From positions 1 through 64,000 of the forward strand of contig FSRV01000002.1 of NCBI GenBank assembly GCA_900142905.1: 64,000 nucleotides of DNA, written 5' to 3'. Positions within the stretch are counted from its first letter, which is position 1. The number at the start of each line of letters is the position of its first letter. A model generated the notes under the pieces. The model did no database searches. It was given only the letters and a program-made list of their open reading frames with translations, and was not told where the DNA came from. The stretch comes from Burkholderia sp. GAS332 (GTDB taxonomy: Bacteria > Pseudomonadota > Gammaproteobacteria > Burkholderiales > Burkholderiaceae). A program made the position numbers and the translations under genes. Shown here piece by piece: positions 8,235 to 48,610 of the stretch.

Positions 8235-8696
8235 CTACTCGACTTTAATCCACACCAATACAGCCGAGCTTTCCTTGCCGGTCACGGGGTTCTTCGCGGG
8301 CAGCGTCTTGATGTACAAGGCGTTGCCGTCGATTCTGAACTGACGCACTTGAGTCGTCCCCGTCCACGACTGATTCCACGATGTATCAATATGGTGGCTA
8401 ACTTTGTCGCCCTCGATACTGTAGGTCCCCGCGTATGCGATAAGTCCGCTGTAGAGATCGACGCGCTCCGCGTCGGTTGGAACGAGCGTGTCAGGCGGCT
8501 TTCGCCCCTCCTTAACCAGAATGGCGCTCATCCGGCCGTCAGGCCCATAGCTGAGATAGCCGCTTGGATGCGCGCCGAACAAATCGGTCTTCTGGCCGGT
8601 CGCCAGGTCTTCATCCGTGAAGGACTGTAGCTTCCAGGTTCCGAGTTGCGGGCCGGTACGGCTCTGCCACTGTTGTTCGGCAGATGGGCGTTTCAT
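8235..8696 (-). CDS. Lipocalin-like domain protein
   Basis: A 153-aa protein with the lipocalin-like (Lipocalin_5 type) pattern: LGTWKLQSFTDED near the start, GYLSYGPDGRMSAILV in the middle, and a C-terminal beta-rich part. No signal peptide is seen, so it is probably cytosolic. The family is thought to form a small beta-barrel that may bind hydrophobic ligands. It lies between the DUF4148 gene (convergent) and a sedolisin fragment, with no obvious operon partner. Confidence 0.75.
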   Translation of the reverse strand: MKRPSAEQQWQSRTGPQLGTWKLQSFTDEDLATGQKTDLFGAHPSGYLSYGPDGRMSAILVKEGRKPPDTLVPTDAERVDLYSGLIAYAGTYSIEGDKVSHHIDTSWNQSWTGTTQVRQFRIDGNALYIKTLPAKNPVTGKESSAVLVWIKVE

Positions 8697-36716: not shown

Positions 36717-38008
36717 TTTGTTTCGCCTTGCAGCTGGCCGAGGACAACGCGGTTCTCTCCGTCGGTCTGCTTGGCGACCCGCTTGGCCTCCCACTTCGCG
36801 ATAACGGCTGTCGCGATGCTGTTACCGATCACGTTCGTGGCGGTTCGCCCCATATCGAGAATCTGATCGATGGCGAGGATCAACACCACGCCGGACGGAG
36901 GCAAATGAAACATCGGGGCAACGGCCGCAACCACCACTACGGAACCTCTTGCGACGCCGGCCATCCCCTTGCTGCTCAACATAAGCACCAGCAACATCAT
37001 GATTTGCGTGCCTATCGGCATATCGATGCCGAAGGCCTGCGCAATAAAAATCGCGGCAAACGCCTGATACATCATCGAGCCGTCGAGGTTGAACGCGTAG
37101 CCGAGCGGCAACGTGAAGCCGACGACCTTCTTGTCGATACCGAACGCTTCAAGCTTCTCGGTCAGACGCGGATAAGCGGCCTCACTGCTCGCGGTCGAAA
37201 AAGCGAGCATCGCGGGTTCCCGGACCGCTCTTAGCAACTTCCAGATCGATTTACCCAGAAAGACGTGACCGACGAGGATGAGGGCAATCCACAGCAGGAC
37301 GAGACCGAGGTAGAAGCTGCCGACGAGCTTGCCGTACGTGGTTAGTACATCCAGGCCGTTCACCGTAATCGCGGAGGCAAGGGCGCCGAAGACACCGATG
37401 GGTGCGAGCCGCATCACATAGTCGGTCAGCTTCAGCATTGCGGGGACGAGCGCATCGATGCCGGCGATCAGCGGTGTGACACGCGGGTCCTTTTTGATGG
37501 CACTCAGCACCACGCCAAACAGCACAGAAAAGACGAGGATTTGAAGAATGTCATTCCGAGCCATCGCATCGATGATGCTGGAAGGGAACGCATGCGTGAC
37601 GAAGTCCTTGAAGTTCAGACCCGCGGTGTTGAGACCAGTGGCCACATCGGAACTGGTCTGCGTCATATGCAAGCCGGCGCCGGGCTGCAGCGCATTCGCA
37701 AGGACGAGGCCAAGCGCGAGCGAGAAGAGCGAGGCGCACACGAACCATCCCACCGACCTGAAGCCGATTCTGCGCACGTCGCTCGTCCCTTCCATTCCGC
37801 CGAGCCCGGACACCAGCGTGGCGAAGACGAGTGGCGCGATAATCATCTTCACAAGCCGCAAGAAGATGTCGGTAATGATCGAGAAGTAGCTGGCGATGGT
37901 CTTCGCTTCTGCGGCATCGGCTACGGTGCGATGGCACGCGTAACCGACAATCACGCCGAGCACCATGCCGACCACAATATAGAACGTTAGGCGGTTTTTC
38001 ATTTCCAT
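36713..38008 (-). CDS. Dicarboxylate/amino acid:cation symporter (DAACS family)
   Basis: About 431 aa, from MEMKNRLTFYIVVGMVLGVI (start 38008 or 38002; an earlier start at 38029 is less likely). It is homologous to GltP/DctA: MIIAPLVFATLVSGLGG, AFSTASSEAAYPRLTEKLEA (the SSS-type hairpin) and GYAFNLDGSMMYQAFAAIFI. It imports acidic amino acids or C4-dicarboxylates with H+ or Na+. Coupled by ATGA to the racemase gene, so glutamate or aspartate is the likely cargo. Confidence 0.92.
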   Translation of the reverse strand: MEMKNRLTFYIVVGMVLGVIVGYACHRTVADAAEAKTIASYFSIITDIFLRLVKMIIAPLVFATLVSGLGGMEGTSDVRRIGFRSVGWFVCASLFSLALGLVLANALQPGAGLHMTQTSSDVATGLNTAGLNFKDFVTHAFPSSIIDAMARNDILQILVFSVLFGVVLSAIKKDPRVTPLIAGIDALVPAMLKLTDYVMRLAPIGVFGALASAITVNGLDVLTTYGKLVGSFYLGLVLLWIALILVGHVFLGKSIWKLLRAVREPAMLAFSTASSEAAYPRLTEKLEAFGIDKKVVGFTLPLGYAFNLDGSMMYQAFAAIFIAQAFGIDMPIGTQIMMLLVLMLSSKGMAGVARGSVVVVAAVAPMFHLPPSGVVLILAIDQILDMGRTATNVIGNSIATAVIAKWEAKRVAKQTDGENRVVLGQLQGETK

Positions 38009-38183
38009 CAGTCCGAGGAAAGCGCACAAAGGTCTGACGTGACCACCGTACGCTGGCAGGAGGCAAAAACGCCGCTAGCGGGGCGACGTTTCTGTGTATG
38101 GACGGATGATAGAGATGAACGAAAAAGACTCAATGCGGGTCTGGCATGGGGATATGCGAGACTCGCATAACGCGGGATAACCC

Positions 38184-39098
38184 TTAATCTACGGTCTGCG
38201 ATGCGGCGCGCAGGTGGCGCCACAGCGTGTCCAGAAACTCACTGCGATTCGAGGCATCCCGGTAGACGCGAAGCTCAACCTCGAGATGCCACGCATCCCG
38301 GCCGGCGGGGACCAGTTCGCCTGCGTCGAGCTCGGCGACGATCGAGCTTTTGGGAAGCCAGGCCACGCCTTCGCCTTCGAGGACCAGTTTCTTGAGGACC
38401 TCGGCCATGTCGGACTCGTAGTGAGGCCTTAAAGCCGGGGTTGCATCGACTCGACTCAGGAGGAGTGCGAGGCAGCGGCCGAAATAGCTGGTTTCTGTGT
38501 ACGAAATCAACGGCAATGGACGCGCCGCCGTTCCAGGCAAACGGAACATGGGCGTACCACGCGGGTTTGGCCGGCAGACAGGCATCAGCACATCGACGCC
38601 TACGGTGAGATGCTCGTACCTGATCGGATCGAGGTGGAGAGGCAGCTCCGGGTGATGATAGGCAAACATCAGTTCGCAGTTGCCGTTCACGAGCATCAGA
38701 ATGGAGTCGTGGACATTGGTCGGTATCACGCGGGCGCGTACCTCCCCGAAACGGGCAGTGAGCGCCTTTAGCCAGGCAGGCAGGAAACTTAGCGCGATGG
38801 TATGGCCCGCTGCAATCTGCAAGCCTTTGCCCGCCATGCGCTGGTCGATACGAATGATGGCTCGCGTATCGAATAGCTTCCCAAGAATGTCTACCGCTGC
38901 TTCTCGAAACAGTTGTCCGGCAGGCGTCAGCGTGGGAGGGAAGCTGCTTCGGTCAATGAGGTCCGCACCCACCCACTGCTCGAGCGACTGAATGCGCCTG
39001 CTGAACCCCGACTGGGTAACGTTCCGAAACTCCGCCGCTCGCGAGAAGCTCTGATACTGGGAGAGCGCGATGAAGTCCTCAATCCACTTGATTTCCAT
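38184..39098 (-). CDS. LysR family transcriptional regulator
   Basis: A 304-aa LysR protein (HTH: IKWIEDFIALSQYQSFSRAA, residues 3-60; effector domain thereafter, with IAAGHTIALSFLPAWLKAL). It lies upstream of the symporter/racemase operon on the same strand, with 175 bases between, and probably controls it. Confidence 0.9.
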   Translation of the reverse strand: MEIKWIEDFIALSQYQSFSRAAEFRNVTQSGFSRRIQSLEQWVGADLIDRSSFPPTLTPAGQLFREAAVDILGKLFDTRAIIRIDQRMAGKGLQIAAGHTIALSFLPAWLKALTARFGEVRARVIPTNVHDSILMLVNGNCELMFAYHHPELPLHLDPIRYEHLTVGVDVLMPVCRPNPRGTPMFRLPGTAARPLPLISYTETSYFGRCLALLLSRVDATPALRPHYESDMAEVLKKLVLEGEGVAWLPKSSIVAELDAGELVPAGRDAWHLEVELRVYRDASNRSEFLDTLWRHLRAASQTVD

Positions 39099-39160
39099 GT
39101 CGGATCCAATGTGTGCTGCGATGGCGCGTGCTGCCGGTGTGCCTAATCATTGATCTCGCG

Positions 39161-40384
39161 TCACAGCATGCGCGTGCGGTTCGTTTCTATCTTGCCTGCA
39201 ATCAGGCTTACCGTTGCGCGCCGAATGGGAAAGCTCCGCGCGTGATCCCGAAAGCGGCCGGCCACCCCAACCGTGCGTTCAATGACCGTCTCCGCTGCAC
39301 GAGCCGGTATACCCGTCAGGCTGGCAAGCTGCAATAGATGCCTGCGCGCCGGCGCGCGACTTTCGCCGCACACGTCCATTTGATGCTCACCGCCCGGCCC
39401 TTCGTTGAAGGTCAAGTCGTAAGCCGGTGAGAATTGCCACTGCCCTTGCGCCGACAGTCGGAAGGAGAAATTTTTCGTGTGGTCGTCCCGATTGTTGAAC
39501 ACGACATTGAACACACAGCGTTCAAAGGCCCGCAACACTTCACGCTCGTCCCGCGTGATGAAGCGAGTCAATTTCAGAAGCGAACCGTAGTCGATCGATG
39601 GACAGCGGAAGTTGGCGTTCAGCGCGCCGGCGGCGGTGTGCATCGGTACGCGCTGAGCGCCAGACCGGTCGAAACGCTCGATGCCGAATGCTGAAAGACG
39701 GGACCCGAGGTCAAAGTACCGTGTTGCCGGCACCGGAATCTCACACGCCTGCGCAAGCACGGCATACAGCGCCTCGACTGCGCACACTTCCTTGTGGTCG
39801 TACTGGTCGGGAAACTTGACCAGCCAGGGCGCGCCGGCACTCTGCTCCGAGTTCGACATGCGGCCACTGTGCGGGTCGAAGTTGACCAGCACTTTAGGCC
39901 GGGCGCCGTGTGGCGAGCCACCCATCAGGACGAGTTCGCGCAGCAACTCGGTACTGCCGTCCGTCATCACTTCGCGGACCTCCCGGGCAAGCTCGACAAG
40001 TTGCACATCCGAAGGTTGAAGATCGTCGCCCTGAGCCGGTTCAAAAACAAGCGCACCCATTGCCTTTTCGCCAATGAACGCAAGACGGTCGAGCGGGGAC
40101 ATCCGCGCAGGCTCCAAACCGCGCTGCCGAAAGAGACGGTCCATGAGTAGCATGCCCCAGCCGTCGGGCAGGGCATCAGAAATGAGCCCTGGCAAGCGAA
40201 ACTGGTGGTCCGGGAAGCTATCGTAGGCCTGCTGACGCAAGGCCAGATGCAAGGGCGAAAGCTCGAGACCGCGTTGCTGGGCTTCGGAGGAGTACTCAAA
40301 TATCAGGTTTGTCCCGTCGTCTCCGAGCTTGCCCAGTTCGAAACGCTCGCTCCAGCCGGCGTAGACGACGCTCAGTTTTTTCAT
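39161..40384 (-). CDS. hipA: HipA-type serine/threonine kinase toxin
   Basis: A 407-aa kinase from ATG 40384, with GGAGG 5 bases upstream (a GTG at 40390 would leave no spacing). The N-terminal subdomain (LSVVYAGWSERFELGKLGDD) is followed by the Gly-rich loop GGSPHGARPKVLVNF, the nucleotide strand PWLVKFPDQYDHKEVC, the catalytic FNVVFNNRDDHTKNFSFRLS and the metal-binding FSPAYDLTFNEG. HipA toxins phosphorylate an aminoacyl-tRNA synthetase or similar target and cause growth arrest; the target here is unknown. Two bases follow the hipB stop. Confidence 0.9.
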   Translation of the reverse strand: MKKLSVVYAGWSERFELGKLGDDGTNLIFEYSSEAQQRGLELSPLHLALRQQAYDSFPDHQFRLPGLISDALPDGWGMLLMDRLFRQRGLEPARMSPLDRLAFIGEKAMGALVFEPAQGDDLQPSDVQLVELAREVREVMTDGSTELLRELVLMGGSPHGARPKVLVNFDPHSGRMSNSEQSAGAPWLVKFPDQYDHKEVCAVEALYAVLAQACEIPVPATRYFDLGSRLSAFGIERFDRSGAQRVPMHTAAGALNANFRCPSIDYGSLLKLTRFITRDEREVLRAFERCVFNVVFNNRDDHTKNFSFRLSAQGQWQFSPAYDLTFNEGPGGEHQMDVCGESRAPARRHLLQLASLTGIPARAAETVIERTVGVAGRFRDHARSFPIRRATVSLIAGKIETNRTRML

Positions 40385-40386
40385 CG

Positions 40387-40686
40387 TCACCTCCGGGAAG
40401 CCCGTTCACGCGTGGCGCTCGCCTTCTCCATCGCGCGAATGGAGCTCGGTTTGTATTCGAACAGAGGCGACAGCGAGCCGGTCAGCCCAAGCGCCATGGC
40501 TATCCGGAGAAGACTCTCAAGCGTTGCCTTCCCGGTACGCTCGAGGTTGCGTACCGCGCGCTCGGACACCCCTGCGCGGGCGGCCAGTTCGCTCTGCTGC
40601 AGATTCTGAGCGAGGCGTTGTGCGCGTAGCCGGTGACCCAGTTCAAGCGAAATTTCGTCCGCAGTAGCGAGATCAAAGAGCAACAT
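40387..40686 (-). CDS. hipB: HipB-type HTH antitoxin
   Basis: A 99-aa XRE-family protein with HTH LGHRLRAQRLAQNLQQSELA, then ARAGVSERAVRNLERTGKAT. It is the expected repressor and antitoxin of the HipA kinase. The gene starts at 40686 and lies directly next to a set of repeated operator-like boxes, as expected for autoregulation. The C-terminus is Arg-rich and may be disordered. Confidence 0.88.
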   Translation of the reverse strand: MLLFDLATADEISLELGHRLRAQRLAQNLQQSELAARAGVSERAVRNLERTGKATLESLLRIAMALGLTGSLSPLFEYKPSSIRAMEKASATRERASRR

Positions 40687-40689
40687 TTT

Positions 40690-40816
40690 GCCGGTTATCC
40701 ATCAAATTTGCCGATAAACATTAATATTTTACCGGTTAACTCCAATGTGATCAAGGTTGTCAATCGTTAACAGGCAAATATGTGCCGCTTAGATTGAGTT
40801 TTTCAAGTTAACCGGC
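40690..40816. promoter_or_regulatory. Array of five operator-like boxes upstream of hipBA
   Basis: A 10-base box with consensus GCCGGTTAAC occurs five times: GCCGGTTATC (40690-40699), GCCGATAAAC (40710-40719) and ACCGGTTAAC (40731-40740) in one orientation, then GTTAACAGGC (40766-40775) and GTTAACCGGC (40807-40816) in the opposite one. Spacings are 20, 21, 35 and 41 bases, nearly multiples of the helical turn within each orientation. This is a probable HipB binding array. It lies in an AT-rich island. Confidence 0.6.
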
Positions 40817-40843
40817 CAAAAAACGATGATTACTTGAAGCCGC

Positions 40844-41020
40844 TCACGATGGCGCAGCTGCACTGCCTGCCTGCATGGCCGACGACTGCAGCCGCTCCGC
40901 ATCCTGCGCCAGCGGCTTCCCGAATAGCCGGCTGTACTGCCGGCTGAATTGCGAGCCACTGAACGCGATACGCCCACGCCGAGCGTGCTCGGTGTGGGCG
41001 TAGTGGAATTCGCGAAGGAT
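40844..41020 (-). pseudogene. C-terminal fragment of an AraC-like regulator
   Basis: The frame ending at TGA 40844-40846 reads ...FHYAHTEHARRGRIAFSGSQ, then FSRQYSRLFGKPLAQDAERL, and stops. The second part resembles the last HTH of AraC family proteins (shared FSRQYRRLFG-like motif). No N-terminal part is found. It lies between hipBA and the broken DUF4148 gene. Confidence 0.4.
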
Positions 41021-41083
41021 CTTTAACCAAGAGGATTGCTTACCGTATTGGAAACAGAATTCAATCCGGCGGTGTTCGGATAA

Positions 41084-41319
41084 TCAGCTGCCGCGATACA
41101 AACTGCTGAGACGGGCAAGCTGGCCATCCTGCTCGGCTTGCACCAGCTCGTGGCGGACTTCTGCGCGCGTCTTCTGCATTGCGCCGATTGGCTCGGGTTC
41201 CATTGCTGCACTTGCGCGGCGTTCGATTGGCCACCGGCTGTTGCAGGCGCTTCAGAGGCGTGAGCGAAGCCAGCCGTAGCGAATGCTGCGAATGCCAAAG
41301 CGATCATTGAGGTTTTCAT
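41084..41319 (-). pseudogene. DUF4148 protein with a frameshift
   Basis: From ATG 41319 a signal peptide is encoded (MKTSMIALAFAAFATAGFAH, cleavage near HASE). The frame then leaves the family pattern after QVQQWNP and runs on to 41023. In another frame the expected DUF4148 motif KTRAEVRHELVQAEQDGQLA appears, ending at TGA 41084-41086. One frameshift at about 41195-41210 explains both. It may be a pseudogene or a sequencing error. Confidence 0.6.
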
Positions 41320-41450
41320 GTCGTACTCCGTGTACCAGTGAATTAAAAGGAAGGCGCCGCGATGTCAGGATCAAGGGCAGCAATTCGGTCAGTCATCTGC
41401 GATGTTGCTTGCGTCTTGCATCCGGCGTTGATGCATTAAAACGTGCCGAC

Positions 41451-41526
41451 GTATCTGGCTTGTGTCGAGAAACCGGGTCAATTGCAATGTTCTGTATCAC
41501 CTCGACGCCCAGATACATTGCGATAC
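41451..41526 (+). repeat. 76-bp promoter element, copy 1
   Basis: GTATCTGGCTTGTGTC (41451-41466), a middle block with TTGCAATGTTCTGTATC, and AGATACATTGCGATAC (41511-41526). Outer arms GTATCTGG and CCAGATAC (41509-41516) are perfect complements. It lies between the thioredoxin-like gene stop and the start of the broken DUF4148 gene, i.e. in that gene's promoter region. Confidence 0.7.
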
Positions 41527-41529
41527 GAA

Positions 41530-42111
41530 TCACGGGTTTTCCGCCAGCAAGGCTTTGATCTTCGCCTCGGTCTGGTCGTAGTCACCTTCGCCGAAGTGCG
41601 TGTAGGCCACGTGCCCTTTCTTGTCGACCAGATAAAACGCAGGCCAATACTGGTTGTCGTAGGCGCGCCACGTTGCGTAGTTGTTGTCCTGCGCGACCGG
41701 GAACGTAATGTCGAAGCGCTTGATCGCCGTCTTGACGTTGTCCGTGTTGCGCTCGAACGGATACTCGGGCGTGTGGACGCCGACCACCACCAGGCCCTGG
41801 TCCTTGTATTTCTGATTCCAGGTCTTTACGTAGGGCAGCACGTGGATGCAGTTAATGCAGGTGTAGGTCCAGAAATCGACCAGTACAACCTTGCCCCGCA
41901 ATTGCTGCATGGTCAGGGGATCGCTATTGAGCCATTTGTCGATGCCGGTGAATTCCGGCGCGGTCGTGCCGTTGTTGACCTGGTTTGCGGTGGGATTTGC
42001 GGCAGCGCTGGCCGCAGGACTTGCAACGAGCGTTGCGAGTGCGGTAGCGCCGGCTGCCACGGTTGCGGCGAACAGGGCGACGGTAGCAGTGGTTTTGAGT
42101 CGGGAGAGCAT
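41530..42111 (-). CDS. Exported TlpA/DipZ-like thioredoxin protein
   Basis: A 193-aa protein with a signal peptide or anchor (VALFAATVAAGATALATLVA) and a thioredoxin fold. FWTYTCINCIHVLPYVKTWN carries the active-site C85-x-x-C88 (CINC), a form typical of the C-terminal domain of DipZ. YWPAFYLVDKKGHVAYTHFG contains the cis-Pro. It is likely a periplasmic thiol-disulfide protein. It is divergent from the GFA gene, with copy 2 of the 76-bp element between them. Confidence 0.85.
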   Translation of the reverse strand: MLSRLKTTATVALFAATVAAGATALATLVASPAASAAANPTANQVNNGTTAPEFTGIDKWLNSDPLTMQQLRGKVVLVDFWTYTCINCIHVLPYVKTWNQKYKDQGLVVVGVHTPEYPFERNTDNVKTAIKRFDITFPVAQDNNYATWRAYDNQYWPAFYLVDKKGHVAYTHFGEGDYDQTEAKIKALLAENP

Positions 42112-42208
42112 GTCAGTGTCCTTTCAGGGAGGGGAAGACCCGGGACTGGAACCAGACGTCGCGTCGGGTATTCCAGTGGTGAACATGGCTGCATTGGAAC
42201 GCCCGTTC

Positions 42209-42284
42209 GTATCTGGCGTGTGTCGCCGGGGGGGCCCGGGTGCAATGTTTTGTGTCAGCGGAACGTCCAGATACATTGCGATAC
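42209..42284 (+). repeat. 76-bp promoter element, copy 2
   Basis: GTATCTGGCGTGTGTC (42209-42224), TGCAATGTTTTGTGTC (42241-42256) and AGATACATTGCGATAC (42269-42284) align with copy 1 at the same spacing and total length. Outer arms GTATCTGG/CCAGATAC are again perfect. It lies in the divergent promoter between the thioredoxin-like gene and the GFA/two-component operon. Confidence 0.7.
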
Positions 42285-42338
42285 AAAGCGTCGCGCGTAC
42301 TGGGCTATAAAGCAGCCATGCCTACTGCGGAGCGACAC

Positions 42339-42710
42339 ATGAGTACCGAATTGCTGCAAGGGGCCTGTCATTGCGGGACCGTGAAATTTGAAGTTCGTAC
42401 TGCCGTCGTTCCTGCCGCGCGTTGCAATTGCAGCCTGTGCCGGCGCAAGGGCGCGCTGATGACGCCGCCGTTCGCCGCGGGCGAACTGAAGATCCTGCAA
42501 GGTGAGGAAGCGCTGACGCTCTACCAGTTCAATACGCGCACGGCGAAGCACTACTTCTGCAAGCATTGCGGCATTTATCCGTTTCACCAGACGCGTAGAG
42601 ATCCGCATTTGTGGCGGGCCAACATCGGTTGCCTGAAGGGCGTCGACCCGTATACGCTGGAGGCCAGTGTGGCCAATGGCGCCAGCCTGTCCGTCGTGGA
42701 GGATGCATGA
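42339..42710 (+). CDS. GFA (glutathione-dependent formaldehyde-activating) family protein
   Basis: A 123-aa zinc-binding protein from MSTELLQGACHCGTVKFEV (42339), with GGAG 8 bases upstream; an ATG at 42318 is also possible. Cys clusters CHCG, CNCSLCRRKG and CKHCGIYPFH define the GFA fold. True formaldehyde-GSH activity is known for only a few members, so the function is open. Its stop overlaps the next small gene (ATGA), making it the first gene of the two-component operon. Confidence 0.88.
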   Translation: MSTELLQGACHCGTVKFEVRTAVVPAARCNCSLCRRKGALMTPPFAAGELKILQGEEALTLYQFNTRTAKHYFCKHCGIYPFHQTRRDPHLWRANIGCLKGVDPYTLEASVANGASLSVVEDA

Positions 42711-42829
42711 GACGGCTCATGGCGATTCTCGCCTTCCTGGCGGGCGGATTGGCCGCGGAACTGGCGCACCCCGTGCACTGTTCGCTGGTCAACGTGAACC
42801 GGGTGCGAGTCAATCGTCGAAAGGATTGA
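42707..42829 (+). CDS. 40-aa small protein between the GFA and response regulator genes
   Basis: ATG 42707 overlaps the GFA stop (ATGA, 42707-42710). It encodes a hydrophobic start (MRRLMAILAFLAGGLAAELA), then HPVHCSLVNVNRVRVNRRKD. It could be a small periplasmic or membrane peptide with one Cys. It ends 7 bases before the response regulator start. The coupling argues that it is translated; no family recognised. Confidence 0.5.
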   Translation: MRRLMAILAFLAGGLAAELAHPVHCSLVNVNRVRVNRRKD

Positions 42830-42836
42830 TCCATTG

Positions 42837-43577
42837 ATGGAAAACACCGATCACGTGCTGATCGTCGACGACGATCGCGGCATCCGCGAATTGCTCGCCA
42901 CCTATCTCGAGAAGAACGGCATGCGCGTTTCGCTCGCCGCTAACGGCCGGCAGATGCGCACCGTCCTCGAGCAAGGCGCGCCCGATCTGATCGTGCTAGA
43001 CCTGATGCTGCCTGGCGAAGACGGTCTCGTGCTGTGCCGGGAATTGCGTGCCGGCAAGTTTCGCGCGGTGCCGGTCTTGATGCTGACCGCTCGCAGCGAG
43101 GAGACAGATCGCATTGTCGGGCTGGAAATGGGCGCGGACGATTACCTTGCCAAGCCGTTTGCGGTGCGCGAACTGCTGGCGCGGATCCGCTCCGTGCTGC
43201 GCCGCGCGCGGATGCTGCCGCCCGGCATGCAGGTGACGGAAACGGCGCCGATGATCGGCTTTGGCGACTGGCGGCTCGACACTACCGCGCGCCATCTGCT
43301 CGACGCCGAGGGCACCATGGTGGCCTTAAGCGGCGCGGAGTATCGCTTGCTGCGCGTGTTCCTCGATCATCCACAGCGCGTGCTCACGCGGGATCAATTG
43401 CTCAATCTGACCCAGGGCCGCCAGGCCGATGCGTTCGACCGCTCGATCGATCTGCTGGTCAGCCGTTTGCGGCAACGCCTGCAGGACACTGCGCGCGAGC
43501 CCCGTTACATCAAGACGCTGCGCAGCGAGGGTTACGTATTTTCGGCGGCCGTGACCATGATCGAAGGCAGTCCATGA
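42837..43577 (+). CDS. OmpR-family response regulator
   Basis: A 246-aa protein from ATG 42837. The receiver domain has the acidic pocket VDDDRG, phospho-acceptor Asp55 in VLDLMLPGEDG, and Lys in YLAKPF. The C-terminal winged helix (HLLDAEGTMVALSGAEYRLL, then YIKTLRSEGYVFS) binds direct-repeat sites. It is coupled to the kinase gene (ATGA, 43574-43577). Most likely it binds the 76-bp elements found at the edges of this block. Confidence 0.93.
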   Translation: MENTDHVLIVDDDRGIRELLATYLEKNGMRVSLAANGRQMRTVLEQGAPDLIVLDLMLPGEDGLVLCRELRAGKFRAVPVLMLTARSEETDRIVGLEMGADDYLAKPFAVRELLARIRSVLRRARMLPPGMQVTETAPMIGFGDWRLDTTARHLLDAEGTMVALSGAEYRLLRVFLDHPQRVLTRDQLLNLTQGRQADAFDRSIDLLVSRLRQRLQDTAREPRYIKTLRSEGYVFSAAVTMIEGSP

Positions 43578-44908
43578 AGCTGAGTACATTGCTGCGCTGG
43601 CCGCGCACGCTGTTCGCACGGCTTGCCCTGATTCTCTTTGTCAGCCTTGCGCTGGTGCAAACGCTATCCGTCTGGCTCACCATGACGGAACGGGACCAGA
43701 CCATGACGAACGTGATGATGGGTTACATCGAACGCGAGGTCACCAGCTCCGTCGCGCTGCTCGATCATTTGCCGGCTAACGAGCGCGCTGAATGGCTGCC
43801 AAGGTTGGCGCGGCGTACCTATACCTTCAATCTGGGACCTGGGGTCGCCGGCGCGCCTCCGGATGCGAAGCTCTCAGCGAGGGTGGCGCAATCCATTGCG
43901 GATGGCATCGGCAAACGCTATCCGCTCACGGCCAACGCTGTCCCCGGTGACCCGGACCGCCTGCAGATCCATCTGCAGTTGAGTGACGGCACACCGCTGA
44001 CGATCGACTATCACCCGATGCCAGGCGCGCCGCTGTCGCCGTGGTTGTCGTGGGTGCTGGTGCTGCAACTGGTGGTGCTGGCCGCCTGCTGCTGGCTGGC
44101 GGTACGGCTGGCGACGCGCCCACTGAGCCATTTGGCGCGAGTGGCCGATACCTTGGGCCCCGACCTGAAGGTGGAGCGCCTGCCCGAAGACGGACCGGAC
44201 GAAGTGGCGCGCGCGGCGCGAGCGTTCAACGCCATGCAGGACCGCATCAAGCTATACATGACCGAGCGCTTGCAGATCCTCGCGGCGATTTCGCACGACC
44301 TGCAAACGCCGATTACCCGCATGCGTTTGCGCGTCGACGTGATGGACGACGACGCGCAAGGGGCCAAGCTGCAGCAGGACTTGCAGGAAATGGAAACCAT
44401 GGTCAAGGAAGGCGTCACATACGCGCGCACCATGCACGGCGCCAGTGAGGCGCCCCTGCGTATCGATCCGGACGCGCTGTTCGACAGCCTCGTGTTCGAC
44501 TATGTCGATGCCGGCAAGGACGTTTCGCTGCACGGGCGAATCGACACTGCACTGGTGACGCGTCCTCAGGCGTTGCGCCGGATCGTGGGCAATCTCGTCG
44601 ATAACGCGCTGAAGTTCGGTGGGTCGGCCGAGATCAGAGTCGCCTCGCAGGACGGGCACGTGATGGTCTCCGTGCTCGATCGCGGACCGGGTATTCCGGC
44701 GGAGTCGCTGGAAGCGGTGTTTGAACCGTTCTACCGGCTGGAAGGATCGCGCAATCGCGGAACCGGCGGTACCGGGCTGGGCCTCGCGATTGCGCGGCAA
44801 CTCGCTTTGGCGATGGACGCTGCGCTGTCCTTGCATAACCGGCCCGACGGCGGCCTGGAAGCCAGGCTTGTGTTGAAAGGCGTCAGCCAGATTCCGATAG
44901 CGCATTGA
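43574..44908 (+). CDS. Sensor histidine kinase, partner of the OmpR-type regulator
   Basis: A 444-aa membrane kinase from ATG 43574 (MKLSTLLRWPRTLFARLALI). Membrane helices at about 15-35 and 157-178 enclose a periplasmic sensor of about 120 residues. Then come HAMP (about 179-232), HisKA with His241 in AAISHDLQTPITRMRLRVDV, and HATPase (NLVDNALKFGG, DRGPGIP, GTGLGLAIARQLAL). It resembles EnvZ/RisS-type sensors. Signal unknown. Confidence 0.93.
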   Translation: MKLSTLLRWPRTLFARLALILFVSLALVQTLSVWLTMTERDQTMTNVMMGYIEREVTSSVALLDHLPANERAEWLPRLARRTYTFNLGPGVAGAPPDAKLSARVAQSIADGIGKRYPLTANAVPGDPDRLQIHLQLSDGTPLTIDYHPMPGAPLSPWLSWVLVLQLVVLAACCWLAVRLATRPLSHLARVADTLGPDLKVERLPEDGPDEVARAARAFNAMQDRIKLYMTERLQILAAISHDLQTPITRMRLRVDVMDDDAQGAKLQQDLQEMETMVKEGVTYARTMHGASEAPLRIDPDALFDSLVFDYVDAGKDVSLHGRIDTALVTRPQALRRIVGNLVDNALKFGGSAEIRVASQDGHVMVSVLDRGPGIPAESLEAVFEPFYRLEGSRNRGTGGTGLGLAIARQLALAMDAALSLHNRPDGGLEARLVLKGVSQIPIAH

Positions 44909-45001
44909 GTGCGCGGTATGCGGCAGCTTTTCGTCGTCGAGCATCATTGTCAGGATGCCGCGCCTTTTCGTCGATGAGCGCCAACTCTCCCCGCCGCCTC
45001 T

Positions 45002-45076
45002 GTATCTCAATGTATCTGCGCCGTCGTTAATTACATAACGTTGCACTGGCGCTCCTCACGGACACAAGCCAGATAC
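45002..45076 (-). repeat. 75-bp promoter element, copy 3 (inverted)
   Basis: Read on the minus strand it aligns with copies 1 and 2: GACACAAGCCAGATAC (45061-45076, complement of the left block), a middle ACGTTGCA (45038-45045) and GTATCTCAATGTATCT (45002-45017), a direct repeat of GTATCT 10 bases apart. It lies upstream of the alpha/beta hydrolase gene. Confidence 0.65.
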
Positions 45077-45100
45077 GTCCAGGGGTTTTAATACTTTCAG

Positions 45101-45128
45101 GCCAGATTTTCTGGCTTCGCAAGCCAGA
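45101..45128. promoter_or_regulatory. Alternative hairpins before the hydrolase gene
   Basis: GCCAGA (45101-45106), TCTGGCTT (45110-45117) and AAGCCAGA (45121-45128) can pair in two mutually exclusive ways. The second gives an 8-bp stem with a 3-base loop. It lies 100 bases before the hydrolase start and could be a terminator of the kinase transcript or an antitermination switch. Confidence 0.35.
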
Positions 45129-45227
45129 CGTGCTTTATGCCAAGCCGCGAGCCTGATCGACATTCATCAAGGGCATCGGCAAATCTGGCGCTGCGTTGAT
45201 AGGGCTAACCTTTGAGGAGAATCAGCG

Positions 45228-46271
45228 ATGCCGGACCAGATCAATACTCGACGTCGTCGTCTGCTTGGGACGACCGTTGCGGGTATCAGTTTGATGGAGT
45301 TGGGGTTGAGCGGGCTCGCCAAGGCGCAGTCGAACGGCACGCCATCCAGTACGAAAACCGCAACGCGTGTTGCTTCGTTCGACAACATCCGCCAGGTCAA
45401 CGCCGGGACGCTCAGCATCGGTTATGCCGAAGCGGGGCCGCAGAATGGACCGGTGGTCATCCTGCTGCACGGCTGGCCCTACGATATCTACAGCTTCGCC
45501 GAAGTCACGCCATTGCTTGCATCTGCGGGCTATCGGGTCATCGTGCCGTATCTGCGAGGCTATGGCTCGACACGGTTCCTGTCCGCGGATACGCCTCGCA
45601 ACGGTCAGCAAGCGGTGGTTGCCGTCGACATCATTGCATTGATGGACGCATTGAAGATCGACAAAGCGATCTTTGGCGGCTTCGATTGGGGCGCACGCAC
45701 GGTGAATATCATTGCGGCGCTGTGGCCGCAGCGATGCAAGGCGATGGTGTCGGTCAGCGGTTATCTGATCGGCAGTCAGGAAGCCAACAAGGCGCCGCTG
45801 CCGCCGAAGGCTGAGTTGGCCTGGTGGTATCAGTTCTATTTCGCCACGGAGCGCGGCCAGGCGGGGTATGAAGCGAACCGCCACGACTTCAACAAGCTGA
45901 TCTGGCGTCTCGCGTCGCCGAAATGGAATTTCGACGATGCAACGTTCGACCGCTCGGCGGAGTCGTTCAACAATCCTGATCACGTTGCGGTGGTGATTCA
46001 CAACTACCGCTGGCGGCTGGGGCTCGTTAACGGCGAACCGCAATACGACGAACTCGAGAAGCGCCTGGCGACGGCGCCGACCATTGCTGTTCCGACCATC
46101 ACCATGGAGGGCGACGCGAACGGCGCTCCGCATCCCGAGCCGGCAGCCTACGCGAAGAAGTTTACCGGCAAGTATCACCATCGGAACATTGGCGGCGGCA
46201 TCGGACATAACCTGCCACAGGAAGCGCCGAAGGCATTTGCCGATGCCATCGTCGATGTCACCCGCCTTTAG
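45228..46271 (+). CDS. Tat-exported alpha/beta hydrolase, epoxide hydrolase-like
   Basis: A 347-aa protein. The N-terminus RRRRLLGTTVAGISLMELG is a twin-arginine signal. The hydrolase core has LLHGWPYDIYSF (oxyanion hole) and the nucleophile elbow GGFDWGARTVN with Asp153 instead of Ser, as in epoxide hydrolases and haloalkane dehalogenases. The C-terminal His is likely in GGGIGHNLPQEAPKAF. GAGGAGA precedes the ATG. It follows the kinase gene and carries the repeated element upstream, so it may be part of the regulon. Confidence 0.85.
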   Translation: MPDQINTRRRRLLGTTVAGISLMELGLSGLAKAQSNGTPSSTKTATRVASFDNIRQVNAGTLSIGYAEAGPQNGPVVILLHGWPYDIYSFAEVTPLLASAGYRVIVPYLRGYGSTRFLSADTPRNGQQAVVAVDIIALMDALKIDKAIFGGFDWGARTVNIIAALWPQRCKAMVSVSGYLIGSQEANKAPLPPKAELAWWYQFYFATERGQAGYEANRHDFNKLIWRLASPKWNFDDATFDRSAESFNNPDHVAVVIHNYRWRLGLVNGEPQYDELEKRLATAPTIAVPTITMEGDANGAPHPEPAAYAKKFTGKYHHRNIGGGIGHNLPQEAPKAFADAIVDVTRL

Positions 46272-46449
46272 CCGAATGGAGGCAATCCGGCGAACCCGGG
46301 TTGGCGATGGTCCCCGAGCGGGCCACAAGGGGGGGTGTGCCGGGCCTGACGTCGTTAAGCTGTGATGCCCGTCAGGTCCGGCCGGTTGCTTTCTGTTGCA
46401 CCCAGGAGGTTGCGCGAATGGTGCCCTTGCGGGCACCACGCGTTGCGGA

Positions 46450-48090
46450 CTAGTGCTTGGGTGGTGTGCTGCCACCGCCGAGTCCACCTGTGAGGCCACC
46501 TAGCAGGTTCGTCAACGGCGCGAGCGGAGACGAGCCGCCGCTTGTGCCGGTGAGTGCGCTGGTGAGTGTGCCGACCAGGTTGGTTAGTGGTGCAGCCGGG
46601 TTGGTCGCGGAGCTTGTCGACGATCCGTGCGAGGTGCCGCCGCCCAGGCCGCCGGTCAGTCCGCCGAGCAAGGTGGTAAGCGGTGCGACAGGGCTGCTGC
46701 CTTGCGAGGTGCCGCCGCCCAAGCCGCCGGTCAGTCCGCCGAGCAAAGTGGTAAGCGGTGCGACAGGGCTGCTACTACCTTGCGAGCCGCCGCTCACCGA
46801 GCCTAGTGACAGGCCGCCGAGCAGAGCGGTCACAGGTGCCAGCAGGCCACCGGTGGCATGTCCGCTCGATCCGCCTGTAACGCCTGTCGTGCCTTTTGAA
46901 CCACCGATTGTGCCGTTGCCCACGCCGTTACCGTTCCCGCTACCGCTGTTGTTGCCCAGGGTGATCGGCACGATAGGCACGCTGATCGCGCCGACGCTGA
47001 CGACCAGGTTCACGATCGGGTCAAGGAGGCCGCTGGTGGTCTGGTTGCCGCTACCGGCACCGACTCCAGTGGAGCCGCCGGAGCCGCTGTGACCACCGTT
47101 GCCAGGGCCACCGCCGTATCCGCCGCCTGAGCCGCCTGAGCCACCTGAGCCACCTGAGCCACCTGAGCCACCTGAGCCGCCGTGGCCGCCGTTTCCGGAG
47201 CCGCCGCCGTTTCCAGAACCGCCACCGTTTCCAGAACCGCCACCGTTTCCAGAACCGCCGCCGTACCCACCGCCCGAGCCGCCTGAACCGCCCGAGCCAC
47301 CGGAACCACCCGAGCCACCGGAACCACCCGAGCCACCGTTTCCAGAACCGCCGCCGTTTCCAGAACCGCCACCATTTCCAGAGCCGCCGCCGTTCCCACC
47401 ACCCGAACCGCCGGAGCCGCCTGAACCGCCTGAACCTCCCGAGCCACCTGAACCACCCGAGCCGCCGTTTCCAGAACCGCCACCGTTCCCACCACCCGAA
47501 CCACCGGAGCCACCCGAACCGCCGGAGCCACCAGAACCACCGGATCCACCCGAGCCGCCGGAGCCACCATGGCCACCGTCTCCGGAACCGCCGCCGTTCC
47601 CACCGCCCCAGCCGCCATGGCCTCCATCACCAGAGCCCCCCGAACCGCCTGAACCACCAGAGCCCCCTGAACCACCGGAGCCACCCGAACCACCTGAGCC
47701 ACCATTTCCAGAACCGCCGCCGTTCCCACTACCCGAACCACCCGAGCCAGTGGAACCACCGGAGCCACCATAACCGCCATAACCACCACCGCCAGCAAAC
47801 CCGCCACCGTACCCCGAGCCGGAAACCGTCACGCCGCCCCAGGTCGTGCTGCCGCCAAAACCGGAGCCACTACTCACACCCGAACCACTACCGGTCCACC
47901 CGCTGGGCGTGCCGCTGCCGCCTGTCCCTGAGAATCCCGATCCCGGTTGCCCGGTGCCCGTCCATCCGCCGCCTTGCGTGATTGAACTCGGCGGTGTGGA
48001 CGTGACATCTCCAGCCTGACACGAAGTGGCGAGCGACCACCATAGGAGTGCGCTTGCCGATGCAACAAGAGTGTGCTTGAAGGGAGCCAT
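46450..48090 (-). CDS. Exported Gly/Ser-repeat protein with C-terminal 25-aa repeats
   Basis: A 546-aa protein from MAPFKHTLVASASALLWWSL (48090), with AAAGGA upstream; the frame further up is not coding-like. A signal peptide (cleavage near CQAGDV) precedes a very long (Gly-Gly-Ser/Asn)n region, about residues 75-335, interrupted by WGG, YGG and HGG units. The end carries copies of SPVAPLTTLLGGLTGGLG-like repeats (DNA period 75 bp at about 46646-46800) and APLTNLLGG. Probably a cell-surface or matrix protein with an extended, elastic shape. The antisense Pro-Glu frames are by-products. Confidence 0.7.
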   Translation of the reverse strand: MAPFKHTLVASASALLWWSLATSCQAGDVTSTPPSSITQGGGWTGTGQPGSGFSGTGGSGTPSGWTGSGSGVSSGSGFGGSTTWGGVTVSGSGYGGGFAGGGGYGGYGGSGGSTGSGGSGSGNGGGSGNGGSGGSGGSGGSGGSGGSGGSGGSGDGGHGGWGGGNGGGSGDGGHGGSGGSGGSGGSGGSGGSGGSGGSGGGNGGGSGNGGSGGSGGSGGSGGSGGSGGSGGGNGGGSGNGGGSGNGGGSGNGGSGGSGGSGGSGGSGGSGGSGGGYGGGSGNGGGSGNGGGSGNGGGSGNGGHGGSGGSGGSGGSGGSGGSGGGYGGGPGNGGHSGSGGSTGVGAGSGNQTTSGLLDPIVNLVVSVGAISVPIVPITLGNNSGSGNGNGVGNGTIGGSKGTTGVTGGSSGHATGGLLAPVTALLGGLSLGSVSGGSQGSSSPVAPLTTLLGGLTGGLGGGTSQGSSPVAPLTTLLGGLTGGLGGGTSHGSSTSSATNPAAPLTNLVGTLTSALTGTSGGSSPLAPLTNLLGGLTGGLGGGSTPPKH

Positions 48091-48610
48091 GATTAGTCCT
48101 TTCGCGATGGAATCGCGTCCTGATTCGTCAAAGGTGTAATCAGTGCCCCCGGAAAACCGCTGATCGGTCTTGCAGAAAAGGGTTACTTTGAGCCCGACAT
48201 CGCGTGTGTGCGCGTCGCCTTCGTTTAGTTCTAGAGCAGGGTGCGGTTGCGCCATGCTCGGATGTGGCTTACTCGGGCAGTTGGTCGCCGCAAGTTCCGA
48301 GCCAACGCGCCGGTGACGACGCGCGGCACGATCCGCGCGTGGGCATTGCCAAAATTGACTGGCGTGCGACGGAGAGCGTCTTGCTGGACGGGGTAGATCG
48401 GGCACGGTGCGGAACACGGCGACGGCATCGTGTGGTGCGTGTTACGTCCCACGTGTTACGTGTTCCCGCCACGTCGAACGTAACCTCGCCGTTACACGTC
48501 GTGCTGGGCAAATAGCTCAGACAAAAGGTGACACCTTCATGATACGGAGTCCGATGTATAAGGCGCATGTTGGAAACGCGCGTTTAGATTTTCACCGGCG
48601 GCGCGTTGAT
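48091..48610. repeat. Region upstream of the Gly/Ser protein with repeated GTTACG boxes
   Basis: No gene supported here. CGTGTTACGT occurs exactly twice (48438-48447 and 48452-48461), with related inverted sites CGAACGTAAC (48475-48484) and GTTACACGTC (48491-48500). These could be operators of the minus-strand gene, although they lie about 350 bases from its start. Confidence 0.35.

Follow-up and report, generated by a model that had tools for sequence, protein, structure and literature searches.

Whose binding site is a 76-base element that recurs around a two-component operon in Burkholderia sp. GAS332? The DNA analysed is a 64,000-nt stretch of contig FSRV01000002.1 (positions 1 to 64,000; hereafter the window), in which three copies of the element surround the genes of an OmpR-family response regulator and an EnvZ-like histidine kinase. 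Judged from sequence comparison, the element is very probably the landing site of this neighbouring regulator, because almost every genome sampled with a close relative of the regulator also has the element.

A three-module element and its conservation in relatives

Read in one orientation, each copy consists of a left module (L, GTATC-N6-GTGTC), 15-16 nt, a middle module (M, TGCAAYGTTHTGTRWY), 10 nt, and a right module (R, NCAGATACATTGNGATAC). L and M share an orientation, and R, with the core GATAC-N5-GATAC, is inverted relative to them.

41451..41526, + strand: putative operator copy 1 (L 41451-41466, M 41483-41498, R 41509-41526), L side facing a DUF4148-like open reading frame (ORF)
42209..42284, + strand: putative operator copy 2 (L 42209-42224, M 42241-42256, R 42267-42284), bidirectional
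45002..45076, - strand: putative operator copy 3 (R 45002-45019, M 45030-45045, L 45061-45076)

An earlier reading of the letters alone (the original prediction) had placed three copies with common left, middle and right blocks at these positions, and the alignment bears this out, with L-to-R start distances of 58, 58 and 57 bp; the one-base shortfall falls between L and M. The same reading described direct repeats 10 bases apart, which is correct for R (10 bp), whereas the L repeat measures 11 bp; base counts over 45 aligned elements from the window and its relatives show these half-sites conserved and the spacers free.

The left block GTATCTGGCNTGTGTC, allowing 0-1 mismatch, occurs at three places in the whole 10.4-Mb genome, and these are the three copies only. 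A mutually independent search with the right block CCAGATACATTGNGATAC, allowing up to 2 mismatches, returned the same three places and no others. A whole-element profile (R1) scores the copies at E = 1.1e-17, 1.3e-17 and 2.3e-15, values that flatter them, as all three belonged to the 42 training sequences; it found no fourth copy in this genome, the next matches being copy 1 on the opposite strand (0.154) and then one at 1.1. The genome thus holds three copies, all intergenic and within one locus, and the genome-wide search for randomly scattered copies that the original prediction had proposed found none beyond it, so the element is not an ordinary dispersed repeat. Three other origins were considered and rejected: a dispersed repeat, by the confinement of the L block, the R block and the whole-element profile to three sites; chance similarity, by the genome-unique L and R blocks together with a spacing histogram that peaks at 57/58; and a known RNA element, by the lack of any Rfam match at gathering scores in 38000-48000 and by the placement of the modules, on the L side, upstream of the -10 hexamer.

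Relatives of the regulator were taken as the best 80 of at least 588 confirmed places, and include Burkholderia/Paraburkholderia/Caballeronia, Pseudoduganella, Massilia, Pseudomonas, Lysobacter, Rhizobium, Ensifer and a Microvirga plasmid. Their elements were sought as L and R together rather than as lone L blocks. In the window and the 45 nearest loci, 44 L/R pairs lie at a spacing of 57/58, versus 0-2 at each other spacing from 30 to 89; the remaining 35 farther loci yielded one pair at 53 and one at 57. Orthologues of the regulator have the conserved element next to them in Burkholderiales, Pseudomonas, Lysobacter and Rhizobiales, and the same geometry is retained in beta-, gamma- and alphaproteobacteria. 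Since the 45 elements were picked by block matches, the conservation of the blocks, R included, is partly by construction; the -10 and a trailing AAA lay outside that pattern.

Profile R1 was built from 42 of the 45 paired elements, omitting three weaker ones (two of locus L054, one of L056). Run over all 80 loci, it matched 23 of the 52 loci outside the training set at E<=0.01, several of them partially. In 20 of those 23 held-out loci a match lies no more than 300 nt upstream of the regulator gene, so the regulator's own promoter looks like the oldest site. Rhizobiales elements can stand tail to tail (8558-8633 and 8709-8784 in L060, likewise in L071 and L077; gaps 71-77 nt); their R modules face each other, and DsbD/thioredoxin and hydrolase genes diverge from the two L sides.

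Co-occurrence of the element with the regulator

Among 299 genomes drawn from the family (element at E<=0.01, regulator at E<=1e-70), the element was found in 187 and the regulator in 183: both in 181, the element only in 6, the regulator only in 2 and neither in 110. The element is therefore present in 181/183 regulator-bearing versus 6/116 regulator-lacking genomes (Fisher p 1e-71, uncorrected for kinship, which makes counts over elements and over genomes non-independent). Some of these assignments rest on weak scores. One genome counted under both is marginal (G276: element 1.1e-4, regulator 2.4e-72), in the two genomes with the regulator only (G166, G291) its matches are weak, near 1e-72, and two of the element-only genomes have marginal element scores (G109, 0.002; G160, 0.008).

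A second draw comprised 398 Pseudomonadota genomes, with a regulator cut-off of E<=1e-105 (at least 66% identity) that was set after viewing the list. Both were present in 24, the element only in 4, the regulator only in 1 and neither in 369, that is, the element in 24/25 regulator-bearing versus 4/373 other genomes. The four carriers below the cut-off are G586, which has a 63%-identical regulator, G388, and two genomes with weak scores (G356 and G436). Both draws scored the best few candidates per genome, and six genomes were re-searched in full, so some scores of "absent" may be misses.

Three genomes (G189, G120, G290) have 17, 13 and 14 profile matches, some overlapping or partial. Several lie off the contig of the main regulator match, and these keep the L-M-R layout. 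The near-perfect co-occurrence, the presence of the element beside orthologues across groups and, in some genomes, copies on contigs other than that of the main regulator match together give strong comparative support to the view that the neighbouring regulator binds the element.

Recognition-helix residues L206 and L207 are each Leu in 28/29 element-bearing regulators; in 34 more distant regulators, a set that is not element-free (L092, L093, L094, L095, L096, L102 and L103 have weak sites at E<=0.01), position 206 is V/L/N and position 207 L/Q, and 17 loci of intermediate kinship stand outside both groups. The kinase aligned over nearly its full length in 25/28 element-bearing loci; the three without a match are L065, L070 and L082, a short contig. 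No conserved periplasmic cysteine was seen by eye among the aligned kinases; Cys172 of the window kinase, in the second membrane segment as placed by eye, is nearly invariant among 30 of them.

Promoter anatomy and a candidate mechanism

Promoter anatomy was read from 91 distinct elements aligned with their flanks, including 46 further elements that had been collected with up to 3 mismatches, duplicates dropped, by a pattern that took in the AAA but not the -10. On the L side, an AAT-ending hexamer lies 10 nt past the terminal GATAC in 71/91, while other offsets from 0 to 59 give 0-9. It is kept in 35/52 after dropping elements at least 75% identical, and outside Rhizobiales it is found in 71/75. 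A -35 match (TTGACA, at least 4 of 6) at spacers 16-19 occurs in 0/91 elements; spacers 15 and 20 give 3 and 1. Because the usual spacers lack a match, L appears to occupy the -35 position, an arrangement like that of pho-box promoters. Past R, TATAAA (at least 5 of 6) occurs at offset 21 in 24/91, the other offsets from 0 to 42 giving none.

Four such hexamers flank the copies in the window:

41435..41440, - strand: -10-like TTTAAT, 10 nt beyond copy 1 on its L side
42193..42198, - strand: -10-like TCCAAT, 10 nt beyond copy 2 on its L side, assigned to the thioredoxin-like gene
42306..42311, + strand: -10-like TATAAA, 21 nt beyond copy 2 on its R side, assigned to the GFA-regulator-kinase operon
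45087..45092, + strand: -10-like TTTAAT, 10 nt beyond copy 3 on its L side, assigned to the hydrolase gene

As copy 2 has the R-side TATAAA, it likely serves two divergent promoters, and copies 1 and 3 one each. The R module is nevertheless retained without a gene start on its side: that of copy 1 is intact although the thioredoxin-like gene has its stop codon 4 nt away, and the nearest R-side ORF points at the element in 15/45 elements (all selected for an R block).

The genes around the three copies are the following:

41023..41319, - strand: DUF4148-like small exported-protein ORF, frame-disrupted here, with intact-looking counterparts in L047 and L048
41530..42111, - strand: redoxin/TlpA-like thioredoxin-fold protein with a CINC motif and signal-like start, both read from sequence
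42339..42710, + strand: GFA-family protein (PF04828), first gene of the operon, its start placed from sequence via an upstream GGAG
42707..42829, + strand: 40-amino-acid ORF that overlaps the GFA stop codon and lies ahead of the regulator gene, with counterparts in L047-L050
42837..43577, + strand: OmpR-family response regulator (PF00072, 1.1e-31; PF00486, 3e-21), the proposed binder of the element
43574..44908, + strand: EnvZ-like histidine kinase (HAMP, HisKA, HATPase_c), overlapping the regulator stop codon
45228..46271, + strand: alpha/beta hydrolase with an RRRRLLG Tat-like start, read from sequence

The original prediction had named the neighbours correctly as regards the redoxin/thioredoxin-like, GFA and Tat-like hydrolase genes. 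Its "DUF4148 gene" has to be amended: the signal peptide and the DUF4148-like segment of ORF 41023-41319 lie in different frames, and a Pfam scan of this ORF gave no match. The copy 1 promoter is well preserved although this ORF is disrupted. Farther out, by eye, a 409-aa HipA-like ORF stands behind a 99-aa helix-turn-helix ORF at 39161-40686 (-), possibly a hipBA-type pair, and a long ORF with many GGS/GGN repeats occupies 46450-48417 (-).

With good confidence, on the sequence evidence, we propose that the OmpR-family two-component system activates four window promoters, including that of its own operon, through composite L/M/R operators, and that these form an envelope redox-repair and detoxification regulon. 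The kinase would sense envelope stress and phosphorylate the regulator, whose phosphorylated dimers would then fill L, M and the inverted R. L would replace the -35 box; because it sets the regulator exactly 10 nt from the -10 hexamer, class-II activator action is suggested, in which L-bound regulator would contact sigma beside the -10 and transcription would start. Copy 1 would drive the DUF4148-like gene, copy 2 the thioredoxin-like gene and copy 3 the hydrolase gene, while the R module of copy 2, facing the TATAAA that heads the GFA-regulator-kinase operon, would provide positive autoregulation. The regulon probably answers thiol-oxidising or electrophilic envelope stress.

Several observations weigh against this proposal. 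As to the operator, M shows a single strong half-site in base counts over the 45 elements, and the offset-10 AAT is found in 0/16 Rhizobiales elements, which make up 16 of the 20 lacking it. As to the proteins, Pseudomonas loci L065 and L070 have regulator and element with no kinase match in the retrieved DNA, and a further, weaker regulator match occurs in each of G120 and G189. As to co-occurrence, G104 carries elements at 4 places, 3 with E<1e-13, and no regulator above 50% identity; G227 and G282 (3.7 and 3.9 Mb) each carry a single element and lack an orthologue; and in G242 the element is present with a regulator gene split into two frames. At the looser E<=1e-70, a regulator match is found in 97/398 Pseudomonadota genomes and the element in just 27 of the 97. 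The 70 without it have only 50-64%-identical relatives, save G668, whose regulator is 73% identical and which has no element at E<=1e-3. Since relatives at this level mostly lack the element, the link is with the close orthologue group, not all OmpR-like relatives. In G388, an element (C1:1601765-1601834) immediately precedes a 56%-identical paralogue with one TGA in its frame, so a second regulator may use the same type of site; this suggests a paralogous system with a like operator.

The G104 and G388 sites also lend something to the idea that the element is the operator of another regulator and merely travels with the locus. That it tracks this regulator so closely across the family, stands just upstream of the regulator gene in most of the held-out matching loci, and has tandem half-sites at the 10-11 bp that fit OmpR-family dimers makes such a coincidence quite unlikely. 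A regulator that is bound at rest and represses, induction being derepression, is compatible with the sequence, which likewise counts against activation, and a protein on L would cover the -35 region and could block RNA polymerase. We nonetheless regard repression as unlikely, if slightly less so than a foreign regulator, since no L-side promoter has a -35 match at the usual spacers, so that an activator is probably needed, and since the fixed 10-nt gap to the -10 resembles class-II activation. The three alike copies inside 3.6 kb could also reflect a recent local duplication or a mobile repeat with no common regulation. This is hardly credible: there are no copies elsewhere in the genome, the modules are conserved while the spacers are free, the geometry is fixed across classes and so is the position of the -10. 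In addition, each window copy, aligned by eye, is closer to its L047 counterpart than to its sister copies, so the copies are not recent. Activation by the neighbouring two-component system thus remains the preferred reading.

Candidate target genes in relatives and known systems compared

In the window's own genome, the candidate target set comprises local genes only. In relatives, the L-side ORFs that were scanned encode alpha/beta hydrolases, EHN-type epoxide hydrolases with a Tat-like signal and DsbD-TM plus Thioredoxin_10 proteins, and further redoxin-like, OsmC, DoxX, DUF4148, DUF2790 and DUF6130 proteins and a MbnB/TglH/ChrH-family protein. TatA paralogues stand on the L side in G120 and G189, with a TatA-like ORF in G290 that was outside the scan; ECF sigma factors stand on the L side in G120 and G189, and a DUF3455 gene on the R side in L167. 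One of the elements in G104 (L208, C45:300000-310000) precedes a CcdA/DsbD-TM gene. These genes share a theme of envelope thiol redox and detoxification; the chemical sensed is a guess.

Relative to the original prediction, the comparison adds three apparent modules, a fixed distance to the putative -10, a middle copy with two likely promoters and a larger candidate regulon in relatives. The 120 listed regulator homologues carry only generic response-regulator names, and in the open-access literature, with most subscription journals outside coverage, we found no name for or study of this two-component system. The chances are about even that this rigid three-module operator, with an inverted dimer site some 60-70 bp upstream that is kept even without a gene start on that side, defines an undescribed and widespread Pseudomonadota regulon, in which a single two-component system governs Tat-exported hydrolases, DsbD/thioredoxin, OsmC, a TatA paralogue, an ECF sigma factor and DUF4148 proteins. 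A three-copy repeat becomes a genome-readable code (L, M, R and a fixed -10), pointing to the likely targets of a widespread, unnamed system, and DUF4148 and DUF2790, whose role is obscure, gain a common and testable regulatory context. The retained inverted module offers a test case for cooperation of OmpR-family dimers across about six helical turns.

Nearest in theme among the systems found is DsbRS of Pseudomonas aeruginosa, a copper-stress two-component system that induces dsbDEG (PMC10141476; PMC12802237). Its theme of envelope thiol redox is similar, and the window set differs by adding hydrolase, GFA and DUF4148-like genes. Two of the eight Pseudomonas loci with 54-56%-identical regulators (L113 and L126) were considered as possible sites of DsbR; of the 8 neighbouring ORFs scanned there, none matched a Dsb family and 2 had no match at all, which lends the idea no support.

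The system is of a kind already known, an OmpR-family two-component regulon. Its receiver and winged-helix domains, the cognate kinase in the operon and the tandem half-sites place the regulator in the OmpR/PhoB family, and the top NCBIfam matches of the pair are OmpR and EnvZ. Both scores lie below the curated cut-offs (OmpR, 255.5 vs 331 bits; EnvZ, 176.1 vs 415 bits), so that the equivalog level for OmpR/EnvZ orthologues is not reached. Several OmpR dimers act at one promoter at ompF, and the window element likewise appears to offer tandem half-sites 10-11 bp apart to several dimers per promoter, but it differs in its GATAC half-sites and in having three modules at one conserved spacing, the distal one inverted.

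In the PhoB system, the distance from the pho box to the -10 is 10 nt. The pho box itself is described as two 11-nt direct repeats (PMC4415409) with strict spacing demands relative to core promoter elements (PMC10294691), and the window L module, an 11-bp tandem repeat at the -35 position, is built alike. The window element differs from it in sequence, in the added R and M modules and in half-sites that read GATAC towards the -10.

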